Shown here: in pieces, positions 8,514-54,379 of the stretch
How the letters are laid out: each line of letters starts with the position of its first letter
Position numbering within the stretch: position 1 is the first letter of the stretch
Assembly: GCA_948567375.1 (NCBI GenBank)
Contig: OX419762.1
Location: forward strand, 37,243,034 to 37,307,033
Length of the DNA stretch: 64,000 bases
Direction of reading: 5' to 3'
DNA from: Lunularia cruciata
Taxonomy: Eukaryota; Streptophyta; Marchantiopsida; Lunulariales; Lunulariaceae
Notes under the pieces: model-generated
Told to the model about the DNA's origin: nothing
The model's input: only the letters and a program-made list of their open reading frames with translations
The model's database searches: none
Made by a program: the position numbers and the translations under genes

Positions 8514-8554
8514 AATTATATTTGTGGATAGATCAAAATTTACCTTTGGTTTTC

Positions 8555-10528: not shown

Positions 10529-10916
10529 TGTAATACTCCGGGGACAAGAGAAGAGAGAAAACACAAATTTCACTCAAACATTCGATGTCCCAAAGGAGCA
10601 CCTTCTCTTCATTATAGAGACAAAGAGGATCTCCTCCAAGGAAGCTCCACCATAAGATTAGGCACACAGATAGATGACATGTCAGCAAGCTCTACCCTTG
10701 GATTACATACTTGGATGGGTGACATGTCAATCTAGGTCCTATCTATTTGGTCAAACAAGCTTTGACTAGAGAGAATCTTTTATGGAATATTCCTATAGGA
10801 ATCTCAAAATCACATGGGTAAGGTACCTTTGGAAAGCTCTCGAGAAGACATACAAGGGGGAGGGAAGGCCAACCTTTCTTCTATTGGGGGGGGGGGATTC
10901 TGTACATTTTTGAGGC
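10529..10916 (-). repeat. Solo LTR-A no. 1, left part (split by element B)
   Basis: Reverse complement of the 3' half of LTR-A (compare 640-1056). It starts TGTAATACTCC, preceded by the 5-bp duplication TGTTG (10524-10528). The LTR is cut at TTTGAGGC and continues at 20811 with AGGCCTAATTC. Together the parts make about 726 bp, close to the 736 bp of the complete copy. An 11-base G run lies at 10886-10896. Confidence 0.9.
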
Positions 10917-11367
10917 TGTCACGTCATTTGTAGTGTCGCATCTAGATTGCTCGGACACTAGAGTTCCAATGATAGTAGTTAGAGTTATTTGAGCAGTTTC
11001 TTAGAGACTACTTTCCGACGGTCAGATTTTGTGTTTGGGGTACTGACTTCACAATGGGGCCCATCGTCACTTTGCACCATTTGCACTGTCAAGTGTGCCA
11101 TCAGCGAGACCGTTAGGGTTTAGACCTAGCTCGAGTCCAGGGGGTATACTTCGAAGTGCAGCTCCAGAGAGCTCACTTCTCTGATGTTGAGCCTTCAAGT
11201 TCCTGGCTATGGTGGACAAAGGCCGGCGAGCGTCACCTAGATTCTCTATGCTAGAGTGGGTGTGACTTGACTATAACCAGTGCACAGTTGTTGGTAGTTT
11301 ATAGAGTTACATATCAAGAACTAATCTGAGTTGAGTTGAGTTGAGAGTGGTAAACAATCTGATTACA
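10917..11367 (+). repeat. Element B terminal repeat A1
   Basis: About 451 bp starting TGTCACGTCATTTGTAG and ending GATTACA. It aligns along its length with A2 at 20256-20705 at high identity. Unlike a normal 5' LTR it lacks the B segment with the TATA box. Confidence 0.85.
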
Positions 11368-12739
11368 TCAGCGAAGTCAAGTCAGGGGGAAATCAGGTGT
11401 AGGAACTTTGAGTGTTTATGGTATCTCCAAGCTCGGTGGATCATTGGTAGCTCGATTCAAGTTCAGTGTTTCCCTAGTGTGAAGAAGTTGGTTCAATTGA
11501 TGTAGATTTGGCAATAAGGCAGACGGTGTGCGGAAGCGCTGGCCAATTTTTGAGCAAAGAAGGAGCAAATTTCGAGCAGTGGTTGTGATTTTGAGCTCAA
11601 GAGATGAAGGCATGACCAATTTGCTGTGAGTTGGGCTCAGAAAGTCAAATTGAAGGTGGAGTTGGGAAGCTATTCTCATGAATTTGTGATTTGGAAAAAC
11701 CCGTGTTGTCAATTTGGCTCGAGTAAAAAGTTAGTGGGGGATTTGGCGGACAACCAACTTTAGGGTTTATGTCAGATTTTACGTTAGATTTTGGTTAGAA
11801 TTTATGTCAGATTTTGGCCAGATTTGGAGGAGTTTCATTGTTTGGCCAGATTTGGAGTACTTTTGCTAGTTTGGAGGACTTTTGCAAGTTTGGAGAAATT
11901 TTGCCAATTATGGAGGAGGTTCGAAGTGGCAAGAAGAAATGCCTCATTTGGGAGTTTAGAGGCTTTGAGGCATAGGGCTGTGGGCTATGAGAGGCTACAA
12001 AGGCCTAGAAGGGCCAACTTGCTAGCGTGAGGCTAGCTAGTTTAGAGTAGACCTTGGTCATTGGTTGGCAAAATCTGCCTTTCCTGCTAGATTGTGGGCA
12101 ATAGGGTTTGACCGCTAGATCTCTTGTTCCTAGACTGGTGCCCTAGCCAACTGGTCCACCCTCACTTGTTATCTTAGTGACTGTGCCACTATTATTTATA
12201 CACATGTAGCTTTAGCTAGGAGAGGCAGTTTGATCCCATTCTTGGTAATCTTGGTAGCTTAGAACTTATATACAAACTTCTCTTATGTCAAATGCCAAAT
12301 GGTGGTAGAGTCAGTCCCATGTTGTATTATGAGATGGAGGGTTTTAGTTTAGACTTCTTTTTGGACCTCCTCCATTCTCTACTTTGTGCACCACATTTGT
12401 GTGAGGTGCCCTGACTTTTGAGCGTTGGTGCTCTGGTGTGCTCTCGATAGTGAGGCTGGAGTGATGACCAATCAGACTACCTTTGTTTCTCTCTGGTGAG
12501 GTAGAAAGTGATGACCTGCAGACCGTGAGAATGCGTGTTATGATGGCAAGTTACAGGTTGCCCTTTCCCCTAGTGTAGTTATCTCGGTTAGATTTACATT
12601 AGTGGGTGGTGCTTAGTTGGTATTGGCACTTGGTGGTGTTGGCACTTGGTGGGGTACTTGCGGTTGCGACTTGCAGTTGCAATTGGTGGTTCTGGTTTGC
12701 TATTGCGGTTACTTTGTCACGACGGAGTTCTTTGGAGAT
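11368..12739 (+). other. Element B untranslated leader
   Basis: About 1.4 kb between A1 and the first Gag-like text. It contains T/G-rich imperfect repeats (AGATTTTGG and TTTGGAG units at 11770-11930) and, near 12628-12660, a short repeated TTGGCACTTGGTGG. Homologous sequence is at 44581-45950 in element C. No protein domain is seen. Confidence 0.6.
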
Positions 12740-14485
12740 TCTAGAGGAGTAAGCCCTGTAGTACACAGTGGGTTTACTCGGAGTGGTGCTTGGTATAAGC
12801 TTGTATCTCAGGTCCTAATGAGAGAGTAGATTGACTTTGAGTTGGAGTTTGACAAAAGAGCTGATTCAGTTGAGAGTGCACTTGGTGTGTCCGCACCATT
12901 GTTGTGGGACATGGACAAGATTTATGGGGCCTCCAAATACCCTAGGTGTTGCTCTGGTACAGTGGGCACCATTGAGTTGGATGACTTCATCCATGAGTTT
13001 GATAGTTGGTGTGATTTGTAGCAGATGCGGAACCCGACTTTGTTTACACCCTTCATGGCATGGAAGGGGTTGTTTCAACATATGGAGGGTCCGCCAATGG
13101 ATGACTACCATGAGTTCAGGAGAGCTCATTTGGAGGAGATTGAGTTATGGAGACAGTATTGGTCTCCACATTATGTCTCCATCACTTTAGGCTCGGTGGC
13201 CAATAGTAGATCGGCTGTACCTACAAGTTCTAGCTCAAGTAGTGTTGGTGGAGCTAGTGGAGGTGCACTAGCTGGAGATAGTGCTACTACGAGTGGAGGT
13301 ACCACTACAAGAGGTGGTGTGGTACCGATGGTGGAGTTCTTCTTGTGTTTGAGGTAGAACTACCAAGGAGTGCGGACTGACAAGCTGAGGAGCTTGCAGG
13401 AGTTCCAATGGAAGGCTAGAGAGAGCTTACATGAGGCATACACTCGCATGAGGCGGCTGATCGGTTTCACTCAAGGAGTTACTGAGGCCCAAGCAGTCTA
13501 GTTTTGGTATGGAATACTGGATAGGGAGTTACGACGTAAAGTTCATGATGCTATGTTGTTATAGGCTACTTCGCCTACTTTGGCCGTGGTCTTTGGTTTG
13601 GTTGAGCGTATTGAGCTCAACATGGTAGAGGAGAGGGTGGCGACATCTGGATTTGGTAGGGAGACCTCATCCACAACTGTGACTTCTTCTAGAGTGCAGT
13701 AGAGTGCACCACACCTAGTTGGTTTTTGAGTATAGGGTGGACAGCCCAGATCCTATGGAGTGAGTGGAAGGCCTAGTGGAGTTGGACCCTTACCTTCATT
13801 TTTGGGTCAGCAGCCGCCAGCGAGTGGTGATGTTGCTTGTTGGACTTGTGGTGGACCTCCTCATCGGAGAGAGTGTACTCAAGGCAATGGACCTGATACC
13901 TAGGGTGCATTACATCCAACACAGAGACTGTGTGAGCATTGCCACAGGTTTGGTCACACTAGTGATTGGTGTTTTGACCTACACCCGGAGTTACGGAGTG
14001 GTAGGGCTGCTATGGCAGGTAGTAGAGGAGCTCCAGTTCATGCAGGACGAGGTGGTGGAGGTGGTGGTAGAGGATCTACACCTAGTAGGGGTGCAATACT
14101 TGCCCTTACTTCTGATATAGCTATGGAGCAGAGATTGGCTAGTATGGCTAGTGCTCAGAGGAGATCAGATTTGGGTGTTGAGGCTTCCACCTCATATACT
14201 GGTGACAGAGATGCTTTGGATTTCATGTGTGGAGCAGCACAAGTGGATGCATCTGTAATAGTGACTAGGAATGCAGTACGTGCTCCAGAGCCTAGAGGAG
14301 CATCAATGGAGTTGGACCCACAAAGAGGAGAGGTTGGGAAACATGTCAGACTTCCGCATTCTTTCATGCTATATGAGGCATTGCAGACAACATCCATGGT
14401 TCCTAGACGTCCTAGTGCAAGTGTGGTAGGTGGTGATGGAATGCATGATGGACTACCTACTAGTCAACCACCTGCTACTACATAG
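12740..14485 (+). pseudogene. Element B Gag (capsid and two zinc knuckles), with stops
   Basis: One reading frame runs through the region with several TAG interruptions. It starts with SVESALGVSAPLLWDMDKIYG, then a retrotransposon-gag segment (FQWKARESLHEAYTRM, LLIGFTQ-like text, FWYGILDRELR). Two CCHC knuckles follow: CWTCGGPPHRREC (Cx2Cx4Hx3C, one residue short of the standard spacing) and CEHCHRFGHTSDWC (standard Cx2Cx4Hx4C). A glycine/arginine-rich tail (GRGGGGGGRGS) follows, typical of nucleic-acid-binding nucleocapsid. The in-frame TAGs at 13356 and 13500 stand where element C has CAA, so they look like mutated glutamine codons. Capsid assembly and RNA packaging are the expected roles. 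Confidence 0.75.
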
Positions 14486-15567
14486 ACTGAGTCTAGCATG
14501 ATATTGGGGGCGGCTCAGCTGATTATGCGATGTCTTTGTTTTTGGCTAGTGACATGTTTACATTGGGAGTTGACCCAGCCCCAGTGTTCCGGTTGGCTGC
14601 CACACTTTGTGAGAGTAGGGATGATGCGGTTCCTACTACTAGGGTAGAGGTGGTTGATAGTGGAGCTCACTTGGTTGAGGAGCATGGGATCCGTTCAGCG
14701 ACCAATGGTTTATGGCAAGCAGTAGCGGCTAGATTGGAGGAGTTGCCAACTAGACCGGCCTTTGAGAGAGCGCGGTTCACACATGGTGTTGTCCTATTGG
14801 ATAACCAAAGGGGGATTTTTTGTTTGGTGGGACCTTCAAGGAAGGTCTATACACCACAAAGAGTCTTGTTAGACTTTGGTGCGCAGCCCTTTATGTTGGG
14901 GAAGGCTACAGTTGTTGGTCTGGAGTTACGGAAGACCGATGTGGAGAGGTGTCCATTTCAAATCCAGACATCTCTAGGTGGTGATTCAACACAATACATC
15001 ACACGTGGGGAGCTTGTTGTCCAGGTTCAGCCTGGTCATCTGATGGATAGCTCGGTGGTGAGAGCTCGGGCTATTGCAACAATAGTTGAGTCATATGATG
15101 TGCTAGTTGGGGGAGTAGTGTTATACCCCATGGGTTTCAGTATTGACTATTGGGAGGAGACACCCTCCTATAGACATGGTTGGCAGTTTGGTGAGGGACG
15201 GGTATGTCGCCTACCAGTATGCTTCAATAGCGGTAGTCTTGGCTCACTACAGTCCAGGACCATGGCAACATCAGTTTTAGCTTTCAATGGTGCAGTTACT
15301 TGGCCTGGTGACTTGTTGGAGGGGAACGCCCATGCAGAAGATACTCTAGTACCAGAGGAGATCACTCGGCTTTGGAGTATGAGTGGGATTGTTCCATCCA
15401 CCTTGGATGTTCCATTGTGGAGTTCAGATGAGGCGTCGCAGTAGCATGTAGATCAGTTAGTGCAGGAGGCTTGGAGTGGAGCCTTCGTACCATCAAGAGA
15501 TGAGTGTGAGGATGAGCCTCCAAAGGCAATTGCTTTGACACCTCTAGATACCACACTCATTGCTTGG
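14486..15567 (+). pseudogene. Element B protease region
   Basis: An open frame at 14530-15444 contains RVLLDFGAQPFMLG, which fits the active-site loop of a retropepsin-like aspartic protease with DFG in place of DTG/DSG. It continues with VGLEL and later VLVGGVVLYPMGFSIDYWEE, a second conserved block also found in element C. The frame is offset by one base from Gag. Element C has one extra base at the junction and reads through, so the offset is a deletion in B rather than programmed frameshifting. The expected role is polyprotein processing. The protease assignment rests on the D-x-G-A motif and on gene order. Confidence 0.65.
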
Positions 15568-16572
15568 TAGTATCCAATAGAGTGGATATGCCTATTGGAG
15601 TTATTTGGTGGGATCAACACTGGACTAGTTGCGGTGTTACAGGCGGGTATCCGAGTACAGAGGTACTTGAATGTAGAGAGAGATGAGACTGCTAGGTGAG
15701 TCTTTCTACATCATGTGGCACACTTGGCCTATTGGTATCCAGAGTTATTATCGATGTCAGCAGTAAGAGATTACCAGAAGGCCCTACCAGCAAACATTTC
15801 CTTATTGGGGGCGCATGACCTAGAGAGACATGGGCCTATTCACTTGGTGATTTCTGGATAGCCATGTCAAGGTCATACACGTGCGGGCCACGGTTTGGGT
15901 CTTCAGGATCCTCATTTTGGTGTGTTTTGGGAGATGTTACGGATATTACGACATCTCCAAGTTCATCAGTCCATTTCTCCAGCTTACCTTTTGGAGAACG
16001 TTCCTTTGATGGGTGATTCTTGCACCAGAGTGGTGGTGAGTACACATTAGGTCCATTCTTGGATGGGACATGCTATTTTGTTAGATGTAGTCAGAGTGGG
16101 ATCACGGGCTCATCATCTTCATCTTTGGTGGACAAACCTCTTACCCAGAGAAGTTTTACAACGTGCTTATGATGGGATTCAACGACTTGACCACATCCTT
16201 GTTGATGATATCTTGGATGTTGGGCATTAGTCTCAGAAAGTGGTAGTGGTTGATAGGTCACCTATGGCAATGGTGAACCTAGTTGGATAGCCTAGAGCCG
16301 CATTTCCTACACTCATGAGTTTCCTAGGCTCTCATGCATTTTGAGAGGGAAGACTTGGACTTGTTTGGGACTCAGAGTTATAGCAGTTGGTGGAGCCCAA
16401 TGTTGATGAGAGAGAGCAGGCAATGGGTTATCGCACTGGTATTACCGCTGTTCCAATAGTGTCAGAGGCATCCATGCGTCAAGTGTTAGGTCAAGCTATG
16501 GACCTGAACTGTTTGACATGGATTGTGAGCCTTGGCTTGGCAGAGCAGCGTAGGATGCACTTGATAAGCATC
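15568..16572 (+). pseudogene. Element B cytosine-5 DNA methyltransferase, DNMT3-like
   Basis: In the same frame as the protease. Motif I is LLELFGGINTGLVAVLQAG (SAM binding), then RYLNVERDET (motif II-like acid), then GPIHLVISG-stop-PCQGHTRAGHG (motif IV with catalytic Cys in PCQ). Next come FWEMLRILR, PAYLLENVPLMG (motif VI, ENV) and VRVGSRAHHLHLWWTNLLP (motif VIII-like). It closes with EREQAMGY and RQVLGQAMDLNCLTWIV (motif IX/X). The order I-to-X is unpermuted, unlike plant DRM. The AHRxRxxW-N block and the spacing resemble DNMT3. Stops interrupt it at the positions before PCQ, after TAR and elsewhere. Element C has TGG at the residue before PC, so the TAG there is a G-to-A change. The product would methylate DNA cytosines; whether that served the element or its target is unknown. 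Confidence 0.85.
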
Positions 16573-16959
16573 ACCACTCGGACACTTGTGAGCCTTGTGC
16601 CTATCAAGACAATTCAAGCACATGCTGGGGGCGATGGACCGGGTGGACATGGTATTCTTGGGACAGATCCAGTAGCTACTAGGGAGAGTGGTCTACTTGG
16701 AGTCCATCCAGGTGAGCGTGGGCTACTTGAATTACACCCTTGGTCCACTTGGGATGCAGCTAGAGGACGTGTGGAGCTTGCAGCCAAAGTGGAGGGAGTT
16801 TTTCACACAAAGGTTGGGACCTCTAGTGGTCGAGAGCATGACACTATTGCTCCCAAGGGCCCAGTGTAGCAACTAGTCAATACGTCTTCCACTCTTACTA
16901 TAGTTATAAAGGATACTTGGGAGCCAGATCTTGGACCCAAGCTTATTGGAGAGGAAAGA
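16573..16959 (+). pseudogene. Element B methyltransferase-RT connector
   Basis: About 130 codons of proline/glycine/histidine-rich text with no recognised domain. Three short repeats of the type GLLGVHPGERGLLELHPWSTW occur. It is kept, degenerate, in element C (50440-50690). Confidence 0.5.
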
Positions 16960-17985
16960 CGGAGGGTTTGGAGGTTCTTGAGGAGCCAAATGAGTTGTTT
17001 TGCCTTCAATTTGAAGGATTTGGGTGCTCTAAAAGGACTTGGTACACGGATTGAGCTGACTAGCGATACACCAATTTTCCAACATCCTTATCGATATAGT
17101 GAGATGGAGAGGACATTGATTCAGAGCCGGAGTAGTGACCTTTTTGAGGTTGGTTTGGTGGAGATTTCACATGCAGAGTATGCATCAGCGACAGTGATGC
17201 CAACCAAGAAAGATATGCATGGAAACTACATAGATAGGCAGATGTGTGGAGATTACCATCCTATCAACCGACAGACCAGGGCTGATTGGTATGCCATGCA
17301 TACACCGGAGGAGATTTTTGATGCGATTAGGCATGCAAAGGTCTTCAGTACTTTAGATCTTTGAGCGAGATATCATCAATTGCCTTGCCGATCAGGGAGG
17401 AGGATAAGTCCAAGATAACATTTTGGGCTATTGATCCTCATGGTAAGGATGTGTTATATCAATGGAGGTTCTTACCATTTGTGTTGAAGAACGCTCCAGT
17501 TGAGTTCTAGCGGGTCATGGATAGGATCCTAGCTGGATTGGATTTTGCTTGGTGCTATATTGATGACATTTTGGTTTATAGCACTACTATGGAGGAGCAT
17601 GAGAGACAATTGTTGGAGGTGTTTGAGAGGTTGAGATCTCATGGACTCAAAATACATCTTGGGAAGTGTAGGTTCTTCCAAGAGCAGGTTGAGTATCTGG
17701 GTCACACTATCTATCCCGGAGGACTTGGTGTTCAACAGACCAAGGTGGAAGCTATTGCACATATTCCTTGGCCTACGAATGTGAGCAAAGTGCGAGCATT
17801 CCTTGGGTTGGCAAACTTCTATTGCCGCTATGTTAGAGGATTTAGTGTCATTGCCAAGGCCTTGAAAAAGCTGACCAAGCTTACACATGAGTGGTGTTGG
17901 AGAGATGAGCAAGAGAGGGCTTTTGTAGAGCTCAAGGAGAGGTTGACATTTGCTTCTATTTTGAGGAGACCAATCAAAGGATGAC
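16960..17985 (+). pseudogene. Element B reverse transcriptase
   Basis: Ty3-type RT: CGDYHPINRQTRADWYAMHTPEEIF, KVFSTLDL, then after a frame break MDRILAGLDFAWCYIDDILVYS with the catalytic YIDD, then HLGKCRFFQEQVEYLGHTI, KVEAIAHIPWP and VRAFLGLANFYCRYVRGFS. The break near 17381 is a 5-bp tandem duplication (TTGCC twice) absent from element C. A TGA at 17362-17364 replaces an arginine codon (C has CGA nearby). It would copy element RNA to DNA in virus-like particles if intact. Confidence 0.9.
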
Positions 17986-18735
17986 CATTTCAAGTTCATA
18001 CGGATTGGAGTATGTTGGGGCTTGGAGTGGTGCTCACCCAACATGATGATGAGGGGAAGGAGTTTGTGGTGGCTTATGCTAGTCACTCCAACAATTTAGT
18101 GGAGGCAAAGTTTAGTTCATATGAGGGAGAGTGCTTGGCAGCAATTTGGGCAGTAGCACATTTTTTATGTTACCTATTTGGTAACCCTTTCACTCTCATC
18201 ACTGATCATCAGCCACTGAAGTGGTTGATGGAGTCCGACAAGCTTTCAAGGAAGCTTGCACAATGGGCTCTGATTTTACAGGAGTATGATTTCACGGTTG
18301 TTCACAAACCTGGAGTGGTGAACCATGATGCAGATGGGTTGAGTAAAAACGCATGTCCCAGCCATCAAGATCAAACCGAAGCACGTTGGCATGGTGAGAC
18401 AGATGTGGAGATGGTGCCAGGTTGGCATGCATCGGCCTTTTTGTGTATATTTTCAGAGGCTTTGGTGGTATCTCTCTCAGCACATACAGGAGGAGTTATT
18501 GAGGTCATAGATCCAAAGAGTGAAGATATTGGTACAGTTCAGCGAGACATTCATGATGATGTCTTAGTGATGGACTATCTTTGCACTGGTGTTGTGGGTG
18601 GCACACTTGGAGCCAAGGAGAGAGACCGTGTTCTTCAGCAAGCTAGACGGTTCAGATTGGAGGGCAGGCACCTTTTGCATGTATGGGAGGATGGTAGAGT
18701 GCGAGTAGTACCACTTCCTACACAGAGACCATAGT
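17986..18735 (+). pseudogene. Element B RNase H and tether
   Basis: The Ty3-type RNase H has VHTDWSMLGLGVVLTQ, EAKFSSYEGECLAAIWA, FTLITDHQPLKWLM and ADGLSKN, keeping the four acidic positions (D, E, D, D). About 125 codons of less conserved sequence follow, ending at a TAG (18732-18734). The upstream TGA at 17982-17984 sits in the RT-RNase H hinge. Confidence 0.88.
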
Positions 18736-19835
18736 TGATCTGTCATGCTCATGAGGAGCTAGGACATTTTGGAGTAAAACATACATATAGCTTACTCTAG
18801 AGTCATTATTGGTGGTGCGGTATGCAAACCAAGGTACAATTGTTTGTTGCCAGATGTGTGGTTTGTGACTGAGTTAGAGCATCATTCAATGCTCCAATTA
18901 CACCCATTACCTATCATGGGATTGGGTTACCGTTGGAGTTTGGACTTTGCTGGACCTTTATTGCTGACTGTGAGACATCATCGGTATGTTTTGGTGATGG
19001 TGGAGCACTTCCCCAAGTGGATTGAGTTGGTGGCACTCCTGACAAGTCTAGTGAAGGGACAACTTACTCGTTCCTAGATCGAATTCTTAGTCATTTTGCT
19101 GCACCAGCTGAGGTTTTGACTGATCAGGGTACAAAGTTCTTGGGAGAGTTTCAGGTCCTGTGTGACAAGGCTTTGATTGATCATCGTATTACATCCCGAG
19201 ATCACCTTGAGGCAGATGGCTTAGCAGAGAGAGTGGTTCAGACGGTGAAGAGAAGATTGCAAAAGTATGGTTTGCATAGAGGCCACTTGGGAGATTGGGA
19301 TCTCCAATTATTTTGGTTGGCCATGGGCTATCAGTTCAGCCGGCAAGCTTCCTTAGCATCCTTCTCTCCGTACTTTCTACTTTATGGATGAGATCCAGAT
19401 TTACCTGCAGCTATTTGTCGAGATGCTAATGTAGTTTTGGACTTGGATGACCTAGATGTATGGATGAGTGCATGTTCTCAACAAGTTGAGATCTTTCGGA
19501 GAGTGATGCCGATGGCCCTTGAGAATTTGGCAATTGCTCGGCATAGAGATACTTTACGCTATGCTACCATTTGAGGAGGAGGTTACAGACCCTCGATCCG
19601 TCGATTTCATCCAAGTGACTATGTATACCTACAGCAGACAGCACCGACGACACTTGATGTTTTGACAAGCCGCACTATCTTGAGAGTGCGTGAGGTTTTG
19701 CCATCTAGAGTCCTTGTGTTAGAAGGACGTGATGGTGTTGTTTGGAAGGATCATGTGCGCAATTGTGCGCCATGCCATCTTCCAAACATTGATGGTACTA
19801 TGGATCCAAGCTTGGCACTTGTACGTGCAAGCTTG
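18736..19835 (+). pseudogene. Element B integrase (H2C2, DDE core, C-terminal part)
   Basis: The zinc-binding H2C2 region is visible as HAHEELGHFGVKHTYS followed by CVVCD. The DDE core has WSLDFAGPL, LTDQGTKF and EADGLAERVVQTVKRRLQKYG with the catalytic Glu. The C-terminal part has FHPSDYVYL, an SH3-like segment as in other Ty3 integrases. Two one-base indels (near 18890-18900 and 19045), both absent from element C, shift the frame. A true DDE integrase agrees with the 4-bp target duplication and argues against a tyrosine-recombinase element. Confidence 0.85.
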
Positions 19836-19838
19836 AGG

Positions 19839-19979
19839 TGTATGTTATGTGGCTCTTTTGGTGGAGCTGCTACTATGTTAGTGTGTGATAGTTGTTCGAG
19901 AGGATAGCATATGGCATGTATGACTCCTCCCCTCACGGTGGTTCCTCAAGGACAGTGGTTATGTCCTAGATGTATTTGA
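19839..19979 (+). pseudogene. Element B C-terminal PHD finger
   Basis: A C4HC3 finger closes the polyprotein: CMLC, CDSCSRG, HMAC, then PQGQWLCPRC. All eight zinc ligands are present in the usual spacing, followed by a TGA. One TAG stands where PHD fingers normally have Trp (before HMAC). Element C reads TGT there and keeps most of the finger (54239-54379). PHD fingers bind the histone H3 tail according to its methylation state, so this domain takes the place of the chromodomain as a likely chromatin reader. Its binding preference cannot be told from sequence alone. Confidence 0.85.
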
Positions 19980-20137
19980 CCTATAGTTAGTTCATTCTTT
20001 ATATGGTATAGATTGCAGACAGGCAACTAACGATGGGGCTCCATAGCACCTGGCTTCCTGATCTTTGCCCATTATAGGGTATACCATATACTTAGAGTAG
20101 ACGGCTATCTGGAGTTAGAGGGACCTAACCACCAGCT

Positions 20138-20148
20138 AGGGGGGCAAT
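20138..20148 (+). other. Element B polypurine tract
   Basis: AGGGGGGCAAT directly precedes the TGTGGCCC that starts B1. The same arrangement (GAGGGGCAAT before TGTGGCAC) occurs in element C at 54508-54517. In a standard LTR element this would define the LTR start. Confidence 0.65.
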
Positions 20149-20255
20149 TGTGGCCCTTTAGAGTCTATGTATGACTTATGTGTGAGTTGTGCTTCTATAG
20201 TGTATGATGTTGACAGCGATGTATGTTGTGTAGTGATGTATATAAGCACGACAAC
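20149..20255 (+). repeat. Element B terminal repeat B1 (contains promoter)
   Basis: 107 bp starting TGTGGCCCTTTAGAG, nearly identical to B2 at 20706-20810. It lies between the polypurine tract and A2 and carries a TATA box. Confidence 0.85.
20239..20246 (+). promoter_or_regulatory. TATA box in B1 (TATATAAG)
   Basis: It lies 17 bp before the start of A2, so transcription would begin at or just inside the A repeat. No B segment stands before A1, so this promoter points out of the integrated element and not into its genes. Confidence 0.5.
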
Positions 20256-20705
20256 TATCACATCATTTGTAGTGTCGCATCTAGATTGCTCGGACACTGG
20301 AGTTGTAGTGATAGTAGTTAGAGTTATTTCAGCAGTTTCTAAAAGACTACTTTCTGACGGTCAGATTTTGTGTTTGGGGTACTGACTTCACGGTGGGGTC
20401 CATCGTCACTTTGTACCGTTTGCACCATCGAGTGTGCCATTAGTGGGACCGCTAGGGTTCAGATCTAGCTCCAGTCTAGGGGGCATACTTTTGAAGTGCA
20501 GCTCTAGAGAGCTCACTTCTCTGATGTTGAGCCTTCGAGTTCTTGACTATGGTGGACAGAGGCCGGCGAGCATCACCTAGATTCTCTATGCTGGAGTGGG
20601 TGTGACTTGACTATAATCAGTGCCAAGTTGTTGGTAGTTTATAGAGTTATAGATGAAGAACTAATCTGGTTGAAGTGAGTTGAGAGTGGTAAACAATTTG
20701 ATTAT
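20256..20705 (+). repeat. Element B terminal repeat A2
   Basis: 450 bp, homologous to A1 throughout (for example GGTCAGATTTTGTGTTTGGGGTACTGACTTCAC is shared apart from scattered transitions; only a part is quoted). It begins TATCAC where A1 and both copies in element C have TGTCA. Confidence 0.85.
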
Positions 20706-20810
20706 TATGGCCCTTTAGAGTCTATGTATGACTTATGTGTGAGTTGTGCTTCTATAGTGTATGATGTTGACAGCAATGTACGTTGTGTAGCGATGTATAT
20801 ACGTACAGCA
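20706..20810 (+). repeat. Element B terminal repeat B2
   Basis: 105 bp, a second copy of B1 with about eight differences, ending TACAGCA. LTR-A sequence resumes immediately after it, so B2 belongs to the inserted unit. Confidence 0.85.
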
Positions 20811-21148
20811 AGGCCTAATTCATCCGTTTAGGCCTCTGCAATTGCTTTCAAAGATTTCAAGCATATTTTGGTTCAAACTCTATCAGTAGAAGTCACCTTT
20901 TGGTGATACCTCTTTATGATCTGTTTAGTCCATTATGTGTAACATCCTTCCAGACTTTACCAAACCAATTCTCACCTTTAAATCATATGTCTAGCTATTT
21001 GTTCTAAGGTTTTCAAGTCTATTTTGGTTTCTACATTAGTAGAAATATTCTTTTGATGATACTTCTATCTGATATATTTTGTACATCATGTATAATATCA
21101 TTCTAAATATTACCAAACCAAATGTGACATCTAGCTCTTGGTATTACA
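20811..21148 (-). repeat. Solo LTR-A no. 1, right part
   Basis: It continues LTR-A from AGGCCTAATTCATCCGTTT to GGTATTACA, matching the reverse complement of 321-655. The following TGTTA pairs with TGTTG at 10524-10528 as a 5-bp target duplication with one change. Confidence 0.9.
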
Positions 21149-43999: not shown

Positions 44000-44580
44000 T
44001 GTCACTCATTTTGTACCCTCATATCTAGATTATTTTAACATCATAGTAGTGATGTTGGTAGTCAATAATATTTTGTTAATTATTCATAAACTATTTGTGG
44101 ATAGTCAGATTTCAGGTTCGTGATATTGATTATATGGTGGGGCCATCGGGACTTAGTCAAAGGTGTCATACGAGGTGTAGTATGCAAGACCATTAGGGTT
44201 GGGTATATTTCCAAAGTGCAACTCTAGAGACTCGTATCTCTAATGATGAGTTTTTGAATTCTTGGTTATGGTAGATAGAGGTCAGATCTCAGGTTTGCGA
44301 TATTGATTATATGGTGGGGCGATAGTCACTTAGTCAGAGGTGTAATCCGCAAGACCATTAAGGTTAGATATACTTCCAAACTGCAACTCTAGAGATTATC
44401 ATCTCTAATATTGAGCTTTTGAATTTTTGGTGATGATAGATAGAGCCCAGTGAACAGTGAACGTTAGAGTTTGTGAGACTTGGTTGTAATCAATATATAG
44501 TTGTTGGTATATTTTGGAGTGACAAGTCAAATATTGATCTGATTGAGTGTGATTCGAGTTGTATGAAGGGATTGATTTCA
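44000..44580 (+). repeat. Element C terminal repeat A1, with internal duplication
   Basis: It starts TGTCACTCATTTTGTA, matching the start of A1 in element B and A2 at 54625. No B segment precedes it. A 177-bp piece is duplicated in tandem (44104-44280 and 44281-44455), which accounts for its larger size. Confidence 0.8.
44104..44456 (+). repeat. 177-bp tandem duplication inside A1 of element C
   Basis: GTCAGAT(T/C)TCAGGTT, then GATATTGATTATATGGTGGGG and the following ~130 bp appear twice with about fifteen differences. Not present in A2 of either element. Confidence 0.85.
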
Positions 44581-45950
44581 TCAAAGAAATGAAATCAAGG
44601 GGAACTCGGGTTTAAGGATTGGAGTTGTTATTGATCATTGGTAGCTCGATCATGGTCTAGAGTTTTCCTAAGAGTGGTAGTGTACAAAAAGTCTTCAAAT
44701 TGATGTAGATTTGGCAGACGATGTGTAGAAACATTGGCCAAATTTTGAGGAAAGAGAAACAATTTTCAAATGTGGTTATGATTTTGAGTTCATGAGGTGA
44801 AAGCAAGACCAGTTTGGTGCAAATTGAGCTTAGAGAGTGAAAATAAAGATGGATTTTGGAATCCATCCCCGTGAATTTGTGATTTGGAGAACCCCATCTT
44901 CAATATGGCTCGAATGGAGAGTTAGTGGAGGAGTTGGTGGTTAGGTAACTTTAGTGATTTACGTTAGATTTTATGTCAAGTTTTTGTTGGATTTTATGTT
45001 AAATTTTGGCTAGATTTTGAGAGGGGTCAATGTGGCAAAGTTTGGCCAAAGTTGGAGTGGGTTCAAAATGGCAAGAAGAAAAGCCTCGTTTGGTATTTAG
45101 AGGATTCGAAGCATAGGGTTGTGGGTTATGAGAGGCTACGAAGGCCTAGAAGTGTAAACAGCTTGCTAGCATGAGGCTAGCTAGTTTAGAGTAAATTTTG
45201 ATCATTATTTGGAAAAATCTACCCACCTTGTTAGATTATGTGCATTAGGGTTTGACCCTTAGATCTTTGGTTCCTAAATTGGTGCCCTCGCCAACTAGTA
45301 CACCTTCACTTGTTGTTGTAGTGATTGTTCCACTATTATCTATACACTTGTAGTTTTGGCTTCTAAGAGATAATTTGATCCTATTTTTGGTGATCCTAGT
45401 AGTTTAGGAAGTAGATAACTCTTATTATGTCAAATGTCAAATGATGACAGAGTTAGTCTATTGCTCATTTATAAGTTAGAGTTTTTTGTTTAGATTTCTT
45501 ATGATTGGACTCCCTCCATTTTTTAGTTCTTTCTTATACACCATGTTTGTGTGAGATGCCTTGACTTTAGAGCGTTGGTGCTCTAGTGTGCTCTTGGTAT
45601 TGAGGTTGGAATGATGACCAATCAGACTACCTATGTTTCTCTTTGGTGAGGTAAGGAGTGATGATCTACAGACTGTGAGAGTGCATGTTGTGATGGCAAG
45701 TTATAGGTTGCCCTTTCTCCTAGTGTAGTTGTCTTAGTTAGAGCTACATTAATCGATGATGTTTGGTTGGTACGTTGGCACTTGGTGGTGTTGGCACTTG
45801 GTGGGGTACTTGTAGTGGTTCCGGTTATAGGTTGCAATTTTTGATTACCTTGTCACGATGGAGTTCTTGGGGGGTTCCAGAGGAGATAAAATTGTAGTAC
45901 ACTGTGGGTTTACTTGGAGTGATGCTCTATATCAGCTTGTATCTTAGGTC
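44581..45950 (+). other. Element C untranslated leader
   Basis: Homologous to 11368-12739 of element B, including the GAAGGCCTAGAAG block, the TTGACCCTTAGATC block and the TTGGCACTTGGTGG repeats. No coding domain. Confidence 0.6.
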
Positions 45951-47610
45951 CCAAGCAGGGAGGAGATTGACTCTAAGTTGGAGTTTGACGTATGAGCTAA
46001 TTTAATTAAGAGTGCACTTGGTGTGTCCGCATCATTGTTATGAGACATGGATGAGATTTATGGGGCTTCCAAAGGCCCCAAGTTTTACTCTAGAACAATG
46101 GGTACCATTGAGTTGGATGACTTCATCCAAGAGTTCAATAGTTGGTGCAACAAATGTGGAACTCAACTTTGTTCACACCCCTCATGCATGGAAGGGGTTC
46201 TTTTAGCACTTGGAGGGTTTATCGATGGACAATTACCATGAGTTTAGGAGAGCTTGCTCACTTTGAGGAGATTGAGCTATGGAGACAATATTGATCTTTG
46301 AACTATATTTCCATCACTTCATGCTCAATTTTTGGGGATCGATCTATTGTTCGCATGAGTTCTAGCTCTAGTAGCATTGGTGGATCTCTTGGAGATGGTG
46401 CTACTACGAGTGGAGGTACTACTATAGGAGGTGGTTTAGTATTGGGCTTTAATCTCATGGTGGAGTTCTTCCAATGTTGAGGCAAAACTACCAAGGAGTG
46501 CGGGCGGACAAGTTGAGTAGCTCACAAGAGTTCCAATGGAAGGCTGGAGAGAGCTTGCGTGAGGCATGCATTCGCATGAGATGGATGATTAGCTATACTT
46601 AGGAAGTTATTGAGGCCCAAGCAGTCCAATTTTGGTATGAGATACTTGACAAAGAGTTGCAACATAGAGTCCGTGATGTTATAGTGTACAAGTTACTTTG
46701 CTTACTTTGGTAGTGGTCTTTGGTTTGGCTCAACATATTGAGCTCAACATGGAGGAGGAGAGAGTGGTGATATTTGGATTTGGTAGAGAACCCTCATCCA
46801 CAACAGTTACTTCCTCTAGAGTGTAGTAGAGTGCACCATGCCATGTTAGTTTCCAAGGATAGGGTGGATAGCCCAGATCCTATGGAGCGGATGGAGGGCC
46901 TATTATGGCTAGACCTTACCTTCATTTTTGGGTCAACAATAACTAGTGAGTGGTGGTGTTGCTTGTTAGACTTGTGGTGGACGTCACCATAGGAGAGAGT
47001 GCACTCAAGTCAATGGACCTAATACCTTTGGTGCATCATAGCAAGCATAGAGACAATGTGAGCATTGCCATAGATTTTGTCACACTAGTGACCAAATGCT
47101 TTGACCTACACCTGGAGTTACGTAGTGGTAGAGCTACTATGGTAGGTGGTAGAGGAGCTCTAGGTCATGGAGGATGAGGTAGTAGAGGTGGACCCACAAT
47201 AGAGGTGCAGTACTTGCCTTTATTTTTTATACAGCCATGGGTACTCAAATTGAGCAATTGGAACATAGATTGGCAAGCATGGCCATAGCTCAGAGGAGAT
47301 CAAATTTAAGTGGTGAGGCTTTCAACTCATATGGGGATGATAGAGGCATCTTAGAATTCATATGTGGAGTAGCACAATTGGATGCATTTGCCGCAATGAC
47401 TAAGAGTGTAGTACATGCTCCAGAGCTTAGAGGAGCATCATTGGAGTTGGACCCATATAGAGAAGAGACGGGTAGCGAGGCTAGACTTCCCCAATCTTTT
47501 ACACTCTTAGAGGGATTGTAGATGGGATTCATGGCTCTTAGATGTCCCAATGTAGGTGTTGTAAGTGATGATGGGGGGCATGATGGACTACCTACTAGTT
47601 AGCCACTTGC
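45951..47610 (+). pseudogene. Element C Gag remnant
   Basis: Recognisable by alignment with element B: MDEIYGASKGPKF, TIELDDFIQEF, the Ser/Gly-rich linker and GGRGALGHGG. The first zinc-knuckle region (near 46960-47010) is badly damaged. A piece of about 94 codons stays open (47237-47521). Confidence 0.7.
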
Positions 47611-48690
47611 TACTACACAGATTGAGTCTAGTATGATGTTGGGAGCGGCTTAGTTGATTATGTGTTTTCCATTATTCTCAACCAGTGATATGTTTATATT
47701 GGGAGTTGACCTAATCCTAGTGTTTTGGTTGGCTGCCACCCTCTATTATAATAGGGATGATGTGGTCTCTACTACTAGAGCAGAGGTGGTTGATAATGGA
47801 GTTGACTTGGTTGAGGAGCATGGGATCCGCCCAACGACTAGTGGTTTATGGCAAGCAATTGTGGTTAGATTGGAGGAGTTACCAACTAGACTGGCCTTTG
47901 AGCAAGCATGGTTTACACTTGGGGTTGTCCTATTGGATAACTAGATGAGGATTTTTTGTTTAGTGGGACCTTTAAGGAAGTTCTATATACAACAGAGGGT
48001 CTTTCTAGCTTCTGGTGTATAGCTCCTTATGTTGGAGAAGGTTACAATTGTCGGTCTAGAGTTGTAGAAGACCAATGTGGAGAGGGGTCCATTTCAGATC
48101 CAAACATCTCTAGGGGGTGGTTCTACACAATATATCACATCTGGAGGGCTTGTTGTTCAAATTCAGCCTGGTCATCCAATTGATAGCTCTATGGTGAGAG
48201 CTTAAGCCATTGCAATAATGGTTGAGTCATATGATGTGTTAGTTAGGGGAGTAGTGTTATACCCCATGGATTTTGATATTGATTATTGGAAGGAGATAGC
48301 CTCCTATAGAGCAGGTTAGCAATTAGGTGAGGGATGAGTATGTCTCCTACCAATATACTTCAATAGTGGTAGTCTTGGCTCATTATAGTCCAAGACCATG
48401 GTGACATCAACTTTAGCTTTCAATGGTTTTGTTACTTGGCCTTTCGATTTATTGAAGGGGAACGGAAGGGGAACGCCTATGCAGAGGATATTCCAATACC
48501 AGAGGAGATCACTCGGATTTGGAATACAAGTGGAATTGATTCATCCACCTTGGATGTTCCATTGTGGAGTTCAAAGGAGGCATTATAGCAACATGCAAAT
48601 CAGTTGGTGCAACAAGCTTGGAGTGGAGCCTTTGTACCACCAAGAGACCAATGTGAGGATGAGCCTCCAAAGTTGATTACCTTGACATCG
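47611..48690 (+). pseudogene. Element C protease region remnant
   Basis: The frame 47654-47944 matches the start of the protease block of B (SDMFILGVDL, RAEVVDNGVDLVEEHGIR). Later text is shifted and stopped. Across the gag junction C keeps the frame that B has lost by one base. Confidence 0.65.
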
Positions 48691-50395
48691 TTGGATACAA
48701 CACTCATTGCTTGATAGTATCCAATAGAGAGAGTATGTCTATTGGAGTTGTTTGATGGGATTAGTATTGTACTAGCTATGGTACTCTAGGCGGGTAAACG
48801 AGTACAGAGGTACTTGTATGTGGAAAGAAATGAGACTACTAAGTGAGTCTATGTACATCATGTGGCACATTGGGCCTATTGGTATCATAAGTTATTACCA
48901 ATGTTAGTAGTTAGGGGCTACCAAAAGATCCTACAAGCATACATTTTTTGTGCGGGGTGCACAAGATTTGAAGTGACATGGTCCCATTCATTTGGTGATT
49001 TTTGGATGGCCATGTTAGGGACATACACGTATTGGCCAAGGTTTGGGTCTTCATGATCCCCATTCTAGTGTATTTTGGGAGATGTTACGGATACTACTAT
49101 TACATCTTAGGTTCATTAGTTTTTTTCTCCAACTTACATTTTGGAGAATATTTCTTTGAAGGGTGATTTTCACACTTGAGTGGTGGCAAGTACAAATTAG
49201 GTCCATTCTTGGATGGGTGTAATACTCAGAGGACAGGAGAGAAAACACAGATTTCACACTCAATCATCCGATGCTCCAAAGGAGCACCCTCTCCTTATTA
49301 TATAGACAAAGAGGATCTCCTCCAAGGAAGCTCCACCATAGGATTAGGCACATAGATAGGTGACATGTTGATCCTACTCCTATCTGGTTGGTCAAACAAG
49401 CTTTGACCAAAGGGAATCTTTTATGGAATCTTCTCATAAGAATCTTAGAATCACATGGGTGAGATACAGTTGGAAAGCTCTCACCAAGACAAAGTAGGGG
49501 AAGGGAAGGCTAGCTCTTCCTGCATCGGGGAGGAATTTGCACATTTTGAGGCCTAATTTATACGTTTAGGCCTCTAAAATTGCCTTCAAAGATTTTAGGC
49601 ATATTTTGATTCCTACTCTATTAATAGAAGTCTCTTTTTGGTAATACCTCTTTATGACATCATTCATGATGTTACTAAACCATCATGTGTAACATCATTC
49701 CAGATGTTACTAAACCAATTCTCACCTTTAAATCATATATTTAGTTATTGGTTCTAAAGTTTTCATGTCTATTTCAATTTCTGCCCTATTAGTATAAGTA
49801 TTCTTTTGGTGATACTTCTGTTTGATCTATTTTTTCCATCATGTATAACATCATTACAGATGTTACCAAACCAAATTTCACATTGAGATCATATGGCTAG
49901 CTCTTGGTATTACAATGGGACATGTTGTGTTATTAGATGCAAGTAGGGTGGGATCACGGGTTCATTATCTTTGTCTTAGGTGGATGAATCTCTTACCTAG
50001 AGAGATTCTACGATGCACTTATGATGGGATTCAACAACTAGACCACATCATTGTTGATGACATCTTGGATGTTAGGCATTAGTCTTAGATGGTGATAGTG
50101 GTTGATAGCTCAGCCTAGAGCTGCTTTTCCACACTTATGAGTTCCTATGCTTCCATGCTTTTTGAGAAAGAGGTCTTGGATTGGTTTGGGGCTCACAATT
50201 ATAGTAGTTGGTGGAGCTCAATGCCAACAAGAGAGAGCATGCAATGGGTTTTTGCACCGGTATTACCTCTATTCCAACCAATAGTGTTAGAGGTATCCAG
50301 ACATTAGATGTTTGGTCATGCTATGAACCTAAACTGTTTGACTTGGATTGTGAACCTTGGCTTAGTAGAGTACCATAGGATGTGCTTGATAGGTA
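48691..50395 (+). pseudogene. Element C DNA methyltransferase remnant, split by a solo LTR
   Basis: Motif I (LLELFDGISIVLAM) and the region before motif IV (GDFWMAM in one frame, FGWPC in another) match B. After the LTR at 49218-49914 it resumes at the residue where B reads MGHAILLDVVRVGS (here MGHVVLLDASRVGS) and continues to the DLDCEPWLS-type end. The Gln of PCQ is a TAG here, but the preceding Trp is intact, the reverse of the state in B. Together the two copies show that the ancestor had both residues. Confidence 0.75.
49218..49914 (-). repeat. Solo LTR-A no. 2, in the element C methyltransferase
   Basis: 697 bp from TGTAATACTCAG to TTGGTATTACA on the plus strand, flanked by perfect 5-bp duplications ATGGG (49213-49217 and 49915-49919). 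The uninterrupted sequence is seen in element B at 16062-16075 (TTGGATGGGACATG). Confidence 0.95.
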
Positions 50396-52180
50396 TCACT
50401 ACTCGGACACTTGTGAGCTCTGTGCTTATCAAGACAATTCAAGCACATATTGGGGGCAATGGACTGAGTGGATAGGGTATTCTTAGGACACCGCTAGTGG
50501 CTACTAAGGAAAGTGGTCTACTTGGAGTGCATCCAAGTGAGTGTAGTCTACTTGGATTACACCCTTGGTCTACTTGGGATGCAAGTAGAGGACATATGGA
50601 GCTTGTAGTTAGGTCAAAAAGATTTTTTCACACTTAGGTTAGGACCTCTATTGGGTTGGAGCATGACACTACTGCTCCCTAAGGCCCAATGTGGTAGCCA
50701 GTCAATATGTCTTCCACTCCTATGATAGTTAGAGAGGATACTTGGGACCCCAATCTTGGATCTAAGCTTACAAGAAGGGAAAGATGGAGAGTTTGGATGT
50801 TCATGAGAAGCTACACAAGTTGTTTTGCCTTTAATATGATTTAGGTGCTCTAAGAGGACTTGGTATTTGGATTGAGCTGACTAGCAATACATCAATTTTC
50901 TGATGTCCCTATCAATATAGTGATATAGAGAGAGCATTAATATATAGCCATAGTAGAGACCTTTTTGAAGTTGGTTTGGTGGAGATTTCACATGGAGAGT
51001 ATCCATTGGCTATAGTGATGCTACCCAAGAAAGATATGCATGGAAACTACACAAGTAGGCAGATGTGTGGAGATTATCATCTTATCAATTAACATACTAC
51101 GGCTAATTGGTATGCTATGGCTACATTGGAGTAGATCTTTGATGCAATTGGGCATGCAAAGGTCTTCAGTACTTTGGATCGTCGAGTAGGATATCATTAG
51201 TTGCTGATCAAGAGGGAGAATAAATCCAAGATAGCATTTTGGGCTATTGATCTTCATGGAAAGGATGTGTTATATCAATGGAGTTTCTTACCATCTTGGT
51301 TAAAGAATGTTCATGCTGAATTCCAAAGGGTCATGGATAGAATCCTAGCTGGATTGGATTTGCTTGGTGCTATATTGATAACATTTAGGTCTATAGCACT
51401 ATTGTGGAGGAGCATGATAGACATTTGTTTGAGACGATTGAGAGGTTGAGATCTCATGGACTCAAATTACATCTTGAGAAATGTAAGTTCTTTCATGAGT
51501 AGGTTGAGTATTTGGGTCACACTATCTGTTTTGGAGAACTTGGTGTTCAGTTAACCAAGGTGGAGGCTATTGCACTTATTCCTTGGCCTAAGGATGTGAG
51601 CAGATTGTGAGCATTCCTTGGGTTGATGAACTTCTATTGTTGTTATGTTAGAGGATTTAGTGTCATTGTGCAAGGCCTTGACAAAGCTGACCAAGCTTAC
51701 ACATGAGTGCTATTGGGGAGATGAGCAAGAGAGAGTTTTTGTAGAGCTCAAGGAGAGGTTGACATATGCTCCTATTTTGAGAAGACCAATCAAAGGATGA
51801 CCATTTTAGGTTCACACTGATCGGAGTATGTTTGGGCTTGGAACAATGCTCACCCATCATGATGAGGGGAAGGAGTTTGTGGTGGGCTATGGTAGTTGCT
51901 CCAACAATTCAGCGGAGATGAAATATAGTTCATATGAGGGAGAGTGTTTGGTTGCAGTATAGGCAGTAGCACATTTCCGGTGTTACCTATTTGGTAACCC
52001 CTTTACTCTCATCACTAATCATCAGCCACTAAAGTGGTTGATGGAGTTTGACAAGCTTTCAAGGAAGCTTGCATGATGGGCTCTGATTTTATAGGAGTAT
52101 AATGTCATGGTTATTCATAGACCTAGAGTGGTGAAATCATGATGTAGATGGGTTGAGTAGAAACCCATGTCCCAACCAAC
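50396..52180 (+). pseudogene. Element C RT and RNase H remnant
   Basis: MCGDYHLIN, KIAFWAIDLHGKDVLYQW, MDRILAGLDLLGAI (YIDD lost by a one-base change of frame) and the RNase H texts HTDRSMFGLG and ITNHQPLKWLM can be read. Stops are frequent. It lacks the 5-bp insertion that shifts the frame in B. Confidence 0.75.
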
Positions 52181-52539
52181 AAGATCAGACCAAAGCATGT
52201 TGGCATGGTGAAATAGATGAGGAGATGGTGCCAAGTTGGCATGCATTTGCCTTTCTCTGTATAATTTTTGAAGCTTTGGTGGTATCTCTCTTAATGCATA
52301 TAGGAGGAGTTATTGAGATCATAGATCCAGAGAGTAGAGATAGTTGTATAGTTTAGCGAGACATTCATGATGATATCTTAGTGATGGACTATCTTTGCAT
52401 TGGTGTTGTGGGTGGCACAATTGGGGCCAAGGAGAAAGACGGTGTTCTTCAACAAGCCAGATGGTTCAAATTGGAGGGCAAATACCTTCTTTGTGTATGG
52501 GAGAAGGATAGAGTGAGAGTTGTACTACTTCTATCTCAC

Positions 52540-53126
52540 AGACCATAGTTGGTCCGTCATGCTCATGAGGAGCTAGGACATTTTGGAGTAAAGTATACAT
52601 ATAGTTTACTTTAGAGTCATTATTGGTGGTGCGGTATGTAGACTAGTGTATAGCAATTTGTGGCCAAATGTGTGGTTTGTGACCAAGTTAGAGCATCATT
52701 TAATGTTCTTATGCCGTAGTTACACTCATTACTTATCATGGGGTTGGGTTACCATTGGAGTTTGGACTTTTTGGACCTTTACCATTGACCATGAGACATC
52801 ATCGATATGTTTTGATGATTATTGAGCACTTCTCCAAGGAGATTGAGTACGTGGTATTTCCTAACAAGTCTAGTGAAGGGACGGCTTACTCTTTCATGGA
52901 TCGTGTTCTCAATCATTTTGGTACACCAATTGAGGTTTTGACTGATCATGATATAGGGTTCTTGGGAGAGTTTTTAGGTCTTGTGTGACAATGCTTTGAT
53001 TGATCATTGTACTACCTTCCCATATCACCCTAAGGCAAATAGCTTAGCCAAGAGAGGGGTTCAAATAGTGAAGAAAGGATTTCAAAAGTATGTTTTGCAA
53101 GGAGACCACTTGGGAGATTGGGATCT
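52540..53126 (+). pseudogene. Element C integrase remnant, left part
   Basis: HEELGHFGVKYTYS (zinc region), then RHHRYVLMIIEHFSKEIEY, SSEGTAYSFMDRVLNHFGTP and LTDHDIGFLGEF, and KANSLAKRGVQIVKKGFQKY. The catalytic Glu of the core has become Lys (AKRGVQ where B has AERVVQ), a G-to-A change. Confidence 0.75.
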
Positions 53127-53707
53127 TGTAATACTACGAGACAAGAGAACTCTCCAAGAGAGATACAAGAGAGAAAATACAAGTTTCACACTCAATCCTT
53201 CAATGCCCCAAAGGAGCACCTTCTCTTTATTATATAACAAAGGGGATCCCTCAAAGGAAGGCCTACCGTTGGATCAAATACATGGATTGGTGACCTGTCA
53301 ATGAGCTCCATCCTTGGATTAGATGTTTGGATGGGTGACATGTAAGTCCTTGTCCTATCTAGTTGGTCCAAAGGGAATCTTTAGAGAATCTTCCTATGGG
53401 GAGCTCAGAATCACATGGGTGAGGTACCATTGGAAAGCTCTTGACAAGATGAATCATAGGGGGAGAAAACAAGCCTTCTCCCTTAATGTGGAGGACTCTT
53501 TCTATTTTCAAGGTCTAATTCATCCGTTTAGACCTCCAAAATTGACTCTAAAATGTTTAGGTTATTTTTTACTTTTAGTTATCCATAAAAGTACTCTTTT
53601 GGTGACACATCTGTTTGATCTACCTGGCCCATTATATGAAACTTCCTTTTAGATGTTACAAAGCCAATTTCCACCTCCAGATAATATATCTAGTTGTGTG
53701 TATTACA
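53127..53707 (-). repeat. Solo LTR-A no. 3, in the element C integrase
   Basis: 581 bp, TGTAATACTACG to GTGTATTACA, flanked by GATCT (53122-53126) and TATCT (53708-53712), a 5-bp duplication with one change. Element B shows the empty site (GGGATCTCCAATTA). It is shorter than the other copies because of internal deletions. Confidence 0.9.
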
Positions 53708-54238
53708 TATCTCCAGTTACCTTGGTTGGCCATGGGCTATCGGTTCAACCGACAAGCCTTCTTAGCATTCTTCTCTCCTTACTTTCTACTCTATGGACAA
53801 GATCCAAATTACATGCAACCATTCATTGAGATATTATAGTAGTTTTGGACTTGGATGATCCAGATGTATGGATGAGCGCATGTTCTCAATGGGCAGAGAT
53901 CTTTTGAGCGATGGCCTTTGAGAAATTGGCAATTGCTCAACATAAGGATACCTTACGCTATACTACCATTTGAGGAGGAGGTTATAGACCCTCAATCCAT
54001 CAATTTGATCTAGGCGACTATGTATATCTATAGCAAATAGCACCAATGACTCTTGATGTTTCTACAAGCCGCACTATCTTGAGAGTGCATGAGGTTTTGC
54101 CATCTGGAGTCCTTGTGTTGGAAGGACATGTTGGTGTTATTTGGAAAGGATCATGTGTGCAATTATGCACCATGCCACCTCTTAAACATTGATGTTACTA
54201 TGGATCCAAGCTTGGCACTTGTACGTGTAGGCTTGTAG
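53708..54238 (+). pseudogene. Element C integrase remnant, right part
   Basis: It continues with LAMGYRFNRQAFLAFFSPYFLLYGQDPNY, which matches B (ending the core helix), and LGDYVYL and TSRTILRVHEVLPSGVLVLEG further on. Broken by stops at the same CGA-derived TGA as in B (ATTTGAGGAGGAGG). Confidence 0.7.
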
Positions 54239-54379
54239 TGTATATTATGTGGCTCTTCTGGTGGAGCTGCTAATATGATAGTGTGTGATACTTATTCGAG
54301 AGGATGTCATATGGCATGTATGACTCCTCCCCTCATGGTGGTTCCTCAAGGACAATGGTTATGTCCTAGATGTACTTGA
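54239..54379 (+). pseudogene. Element C PHD finger
   Basis: CILC, CDTYSRGCHMAC, PQGQWLCPRC and a TGA. Seven of eight zinc ligands remain; the fourth Cys is Tyr. Independent survival of the finger in two diverged copies supports that it was a real part of the family's polyprotein. Confidence 0.8.

Follow-up and report, generated by a model that had tools for sequence, protein, structure and literature searches.

A decayed Ty3/gypsy-type retrotransposon carrying a DNMT3-like cytosine methyltransferase in the liverwort Lunularia cruciata

The window analysed here, a stretch of 64,000 nucleotides from Lunularia cruciata (assembly GCA_948567375.1, contig OX419762.1, positions 37,243,034 to 37,307,033 of the forward strand), holds two copies of one retrotransposon, both on the forward strand. 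Copy 1 (10917..20810), recognised by its TG..CA ends, its repeats and an empty site, is an old, decayed Ty3/gypsy-type element in which a DNMT3-like cytosine methyltransferase is found after the protease and before the reverse transcriptase (RT). Its domains follow the order Gag (with two CCHC knuckles), aspartic protease, C5-methyltransferase, RT, RNase H, DDE integrase and PHD finger. Copy 2 (44000..55170) is the same element in a more decayed state. Among the neighbouring features is a gene for a PsbP-domain protein 6 on the reverse strand (27538-28431), an open reading frame without intron whose product is 80% identical to its counterpart in Marchantia paleacea, 78% in M. polymorpha, 72% in Riccia fluitans and 66% in Calypogeia among the best 120 of 406 matches. 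By itself this ranking makes a liverwort host very likely, and probably a complex thalloid one. By eye, a decayed Ty1/copia element with RT and RNase H fragments (7158-8642) and a polyphenol-oxidase-like (tyrosinase) open frame (41790-42881) were seen on the reverse strand, and a fragment of a SERAC1-like alpha/beta hydrolase gene (25110-26199) on the forward strand.

The calls of Gag, protease and integrase in copy 1 are based on tblastn with an intact relative, the contig L006 described below. The Gag remnant with its two knuckles (12830..14482) aligns to the first open reading frame (ORF1) of L006 over 13325-14446 with 24% identity; upstream of 13325 its likeness to the Marchantia protein P0244 was judged by eye, and Pfam found no family in the two Gag pieces. 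Its reading frame differs from that of the protease region (14497..15441), where the active-site block reads DFGAQP in place of the DSGAQP of relatives; Pfam listed no family for this protease piece, and the L006 counterpart scores below the cutoff in Asp_protease_2. The RT (16912..17981) was located by Pfam RVT_1 in 17511-17981 and by tblastn with ORF2 of L006, and shifts frame near 17385-17406. RNase H (17985..18731) is matched by Pfam RT_RNaseH at 2e-31. The DDE integrase remnant (18778..19571) was found with L006 ORF2, Pfam rve remaining below cutoff in one piece, and its C-terminus carries the PHD finger (19839..19976; Pfam PHD, 2.9e-12, with its one stop at 19905 written as X). A chromatin-reader domain at the end of the integrase recalls the chromoviruses; those, however, carry a chromodomain where this element carries a PHD finger. 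The initial annotation had placed the methyltransferase in the same frame as protease and RT. Indeed, frame +1 runs from 14497 to 17361 through the protease, the methyltransferase and the first part of the RT, but stops break it.

The methyltransferase domain itself occupies 15571..16569 and was identified by Pfam, by protein search and by sequence match to solved structures. The profile search that the initial annotation had proposed placed the translation of 15445-16869, with X at the stops, above the cutoff for DNA_methylase (E 1.8e-5; 24.8 bits against a cutoff of 22), and a search of a set of 5.8 billion proteins gave 103 matches with E values of 0.001 or less, the strongest reaching 2e-149, so that the domain is no chance pattern. 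A C5-methyltransferase between protease and RT, as first proposed, is thus borne out. Motifs I (LFGGINTG), IV (PCQG), VI (ENV), VIII, IX and X (EPNVDEREQAMGY...LGQAMD for IX/X) stand in linear order; since motif I precedes motif IV, the circularly permuted order of DRM is absent, as the initial annotation had claimed. The closest PDB sequence match is DNMT3A (1.4e-6), compared with 0.02 for DRM, and DNMT3A and DNMT3B are the nearest solved C5 enzymes by both sequence and fold, with DNMT2 well behind in sequence. DNMT3A/3B and the plant DNMT3 share the catalytic motif order and the fold with the window's enzyme, whereas motif IV is W-P-C-Q in the window's group and S-P-C-N in DNMT3A. The AHxxRxxW-N block described earlier as resembling DNMT3 could be located, but reads AHHLHLWWTN in copy 1, the motif VIII arginines present in most relatives being lost. 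Among 143 sequences examined, 47 have near-complete domains, and the catalytic Cys is kept in 42 and the Glu in 45 of these. L006 was compared with 14 ORF1 proteins taken from the 38 of one protein search, and in every case the methyltransferase (55-92% identical) is better conserved than both the linker (31-74% identity) and the tail (at 32-75%); the protease, at 59-96%, is conserved about as well.

As judged from its sequence, copy 1 is dead and cannot work because it has 16 in-frame stops, a count that covers 14497-17361, 17511-18731 and 18873-19979 and includes the boundary stop at 16867 and the stop at 19977, which is possibly the natural end. Nine of them fall within 15445-16869: one at 15568 directly upstream of the methyltransferase domain, seven inside it (15697, 15859, 16048, 16228, 16288, 16342 and 16381) and the boundary stop as the last. 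The stop at 15859 directly precedes the catalytic PCQ, at a site where 42 of the 47 near-complete relatives have Trp. Between the terminal repeats A1 and A2 of copy 1, 44 differences were counted over 444 aligned sites, 35 of them transitions, and the observed/expected ratio of CpG is 0.37 in copy 1, 0.21 in copy 2, 0.62 in the window outside the two copies and their margins, and 0.82 in the intact L006. The transition excess together with the low CpG of copy 1 is as expected for methylated, deaminated DNA. The pair of copies was also considered as a source of evidence for selection on the enzyme, which was dropped since change is nearly equal at the three codon positions and gives no sign of selection.

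Copy 2 starts with TG and ends with CA, is flanked by TAAG and TAGG, and has the same A-coding-B-A-B order, interrupted at 49218-49914 and 53127-53707. These interruptions belong to a separate repeat family of ~600-700 bp (TGTAATACT...TATTACA, with TG..CA ends), further copies of which lie at about 321-1056 (reverse) and at 10513-10916 plus 20815-21148. Two members are thus inserted in copy 2, while copy 1 itself sits inside another; the member at 49218 has ATGGG on both flanks and is solo-LTR-like.

The way copy 1 was inserted can be read from its borders. The duplicated target site AGGC stands at 10913..10916 on the left and 20811..20814 on the right, and the flanks, once joined, align without a break over the junction to three further members of the target repeat, which provides an empty site. 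Inside these borders, repeat A1 (10917..11364, 3' limit approximate) opens the element, and the coding region is followed by a polypurine tract GGGGGG (20139..20144; copy 2 and L006 have a similar tract in the corresponding position), repeat B1 (20145..20253), a two-nucleotide spacer AC (20254..20255), repeat A2 (20256..20703) and repeat B2 (20704..20810). The order A1-coding-B1-A2-B2, present in both copies, is the arrangement of split repeats known from DIRS/PAT-type retrotransposons; the window's element differs from these in its DDE integrase, its TG..CA ends and its 4-bp duplication. DIRS elements are not known to make a target-site duplication. A DIRS-type repeat order is therefore combined here with marks of the integrase type. 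At the internal B.A junction, which reads CA-AC-TATCAC in copy 1, the spacer is also two nucleotides long in copy 2 (GT) and L006 (GC), and in all three it is preceded by CA (TA in copy 2) and followed by TG (TA in copy 1). At the joint of A2 and B2, the end of A meets the start found after the polypurine tract; inspection by eye of the sequence after A1 revealed no primer-binding site. This arrangement could arise if an ordinary LTR product, with B-A at both ends, were joined end to end and the integrase opened the internal B.A junction. Alternatively, the A-coding-B-A-B order may come about by a templated route resembling that of DIRS elements.

The intact relative L006 is a contig of 9285 bases that came from a scan of prokaryotic genomes (GTDB), where it is binned with a cyanobacterium. 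Its two ends share an identical overlap of 127 bases, as in a circle, and it consists of the element alone, without flanks and of eukaryotic type. A cyanobacterial gene was for this reason rejected, and contamination of the cyanobacterial bin is likely. Its ORF1 encodes Gag, knuckles, protease and methyltransferase; ORF2, in the same frame, encodes RT, RNase H, integrase and PHD finger (4e-10). By Pfam, ORF2 contains rve and Integrase_H2C2, and neither a phage integrase (tyrosine recombinase) nor a chromodomain was listed for it; no PWWP, ADD or DUF3444 partner was found by Pfam in the two ORFs. The first Met of ORF2 is residue 117, within the RT, and the frame would hence need readthrough or another unusual start. 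Scans of viral contigs for further intact copies returned five weak matches (29-33% identity) in the first of three and none in the other two; one of the weak matches, L001, has a frame identical to one from the bacterium Longispora. Collectively, the DNMT3-like enzyme almost certainly belongs to an LTR-type element. An assembly artefact, or a host DNMT3 gene misread as a transposon, has a negligible chance of explaining why the window contains two copies and an empty site, why protease and RT stand on either side of the enzyme and why an intact 9.3-kb relative has the same order.

The intact layout modifies the initial picture of a methyltransferase inside a polyprotein, in that the enzyme of L006 ends a Gag-protease frame and a stop precedes the RT; it is not one simple Gag-Pol. 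Copy 1 has TAG CAA CTA at this boundary (16867..16869) and L006 has TAG CAA TCA, both conforming to UAG CAR YYA, the leaky-stop motif of the tobamovirus type. Only the boundary stop, among the 16 counted in frame in copy 1, stands in the context TAG CAR YYA; at the in-frame boundary this context is present in L006 and copy 1 and absent in copy 2. The string alone is not rare, with three occurrences on the forward strand of the window, where shuffled sequences average 2.3, so that the argument for a leaky stop rests on its place. Proteins of relatives were examined for where they end, although such ends can equally be contig ends or gene-model artefacts: among 15 compared at the boundary, seven (from Sphagnum, Calypogeia and others) end within one residue of it, in favour of a leaky stop. 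On the other side, three lack the HPW anchor shared by the rest, and five end 38-43 residues past this anchor, a distance that is 44 in the window. Also against a leaky stop, an RT or integrase match was found in 10 of 81 proteins extending well past motif X, a count made with an anchor that missed P0258 and P0260; the 10 include three Marchantia gene models, one from Riccia, and the stop-free P0248 and P0253.

The competing view is that the boundary stop of the window is mere decay of a single polyprotein from protease through methyltransferase and RT to integrase. Copy 2 reads TGG TAG CCA at the boundary, which can mean that the stop of copy 1 arose from TGG by decay; in P0248 and P0253 no stop interrupts the passage from methyltransferase to RT, and the stop at 15859 has likewise replaced a conserved Trp. 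However, the intact L006 has the stop in the same CAR YYA context, and the seven close relatives that end within a residue of the boundary also speak against decay, which we consider unlikely. The boundary UAG is probably a leaky stop.

Two protein searches gave 141 related proteins, the named ones including Marchantia, Riccia, Calypogeia, Sphagnum and Closterium; no record named Klebsormidium was among the proteins returned. P0255, P0258 and P0261 differ in carrying the methyltransferase downstream of RNase H and upstream of the integrase. A tree of 35 of the 143 relatives, with two identical rows of one distant bacterial sequence and 17 of 33 inner branches well supported, unites these three with P0259 and P0260 in a clade (100/100), the RNase H-DNMT-integrase group; Closterium and P0253 are on long branches and their placement is unsure. 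The methyltransferase domain thus occupies two places in the wider group of elements, through either two captures or a move. In the distant relatives P0248, P0253, P0067, P0255 and P0261, motif IV takes the form x-E-C-(Q/K) with the Cys kept.

The initial annotation had mentioned cytosine methyltransferases captured by LTR retrotransposons in some algae and protists, and such an element was indeed described in 2018 as KnitGypsy-Dnmt3, a Dnmt3 in a Gypsy LTR element of Klebsormidium nitens (de Mendoza et al., PMC5890265). As compared by the description in that paper, it shares with the window's element the Gypsy domains, an unpermuted Dnmt3-type enzyme in the coding region and DIRS-like repeats; here the Gypsy set of protease (weakly by Pfam), RT, RNase H and DDE integrase is present together with the Dnmt3. 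The hosts differ, an alga in one case and a liverwort in the other, and for L006 so does the location of the enzyme, which the paper assigns to the Pol ORF (PMC5890265) and which in L006 lies in the Gag-protease ORF upstream of TAG CAR YYA; in P0248 and P0253 it is fused to the RT. The words 'PHD' and 'readthrough' are absent from the paper's main text. The same source describes SymbioDIRS-Dnmt3 and SymbioLINE-Dnmt from dinoflagellates (PMC5890265), which likewise are retrotransposons with a cytosine methyltransferase but are of the tyrosine recombinase or LINE type, whereas the window's element has a DDE integrase. In PMC12344493, streptophyte and dinoflagellate retrotransposon DNMT3s are assigned to LTR Copia and DIRS, as opposed to the Gypsy of the 2018 paper (PMC5890265). 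Such elements are stated to be missing from land plants in PMC6338049, which the Marchantia, Riccia, Calypogeia and Sphagnum proteins contradict. Going by these sequences, methyltransferase-carrying retrotransposons, published from algae, also occur in land plants. No such element is reported in the available portions of PMC8616336, PMC7043111 and PMC10952607, and the matches listed, from a literature mostly without subscription journals and preprints, include none that treats DNMT-carrying retrotransposons of bryophytes. Among the same listed matches, neither bryophyte members nor the leaky-stop layout, the pairing with a PHD finger or integrase-type ends on split repeats were seen as published.

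On balance, we favour a reading in which the window holds a decayed element whose intact relatives are predicted to make their enzyme along with Gag, ahead of a UAG that is likely leaky, and would use it inside the particle to methylate their own cDNA prior to integration. Gag-protease-DNMT would be the main product, and a fraction of ribosomes would pass the UAG and add RT, RNase H, integrase and PHD finger. Being upstream of the leaky stop, the methyltransferase would be abundant in the particle, in Gag amounts; packed with the RNA, it could methylate the double-stranded cDNA there. The PHD finger may direct the integrase to chromatin that bears a particular histone mark, and the new copy would arrive already marked, resembling native silent DNA. 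Distant support for this scheme comes from SymbioDIRS-Dnmt3, which is reported to methylate CG de novo in yeast (PMC5890265); KnitGypsy-Dnmt3 gave no methylation in the same paper's yeast assay, a result its authors call inconclusive. Methylation of the element's own cDNA is the likeliest role, though we put it forward tentatively.

Two other roles compete with this one. Guided by the PHD finger, the methyltransferase might act not on cDNA but on the host's chromatin where the element lands or close by. The occurrence of the PHD finger in the window, L006, P0255, P0258, P0259 and P0261, and the position of the methyltransferase next to the integrase in three of these proteins, agree with such a role; in the window's lineage, however, a stop separates the enzyme from integrase and PHD finger and most of it would be untethered, making this rather improbable. 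Or the enzyme may serve a different substrate, for instance the element's RNA or a primer tRNA, or persist as a structural part of Gag. RNA was considered for LINE-borne enzymes by de Mendoza et al. (in the 2018 text, PMC5890265), and Glu replaces Pro in motif IV of three of the 47 near-complete relatives. Against this, sequence and fold are nearest to DNMT3, the sequence well ahead of DNMT2, and the catalytic Cys and Glu are kept, leaving it doubtful. Self-methylation of cDNA is retained as the preferred role. Taken further, and as a speculative possibility, the elements may form an ancient streptophyte lineage that couples a DNMT3 writer, made at Gag level ahead of a leaky UAG, with a PHD reader on the integrase, and that moves as permuted DNA: an ordinary LTR product of reverse transcription would be closed into a circle, which the DDE integrase would open at the B.A junction (CA-NN-TG), yielding the DIRS-like A-coding-B-A-B order together with TG..CA ends and a 4-bp duplication, and the element would arrive pre-methylated at chosen chromatin.

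Host cells use DNA methylation to silence transposons, and a transposon that keeps its own methyltransferase reverses this logic. Marchantia polymorpha is a genetic model, and with members of the group in Marchantia the question of why an element methylates DNA becomes testable. Further, split repeats with integrase-type ends offer a concrete route into the replication of split-repeat elements.
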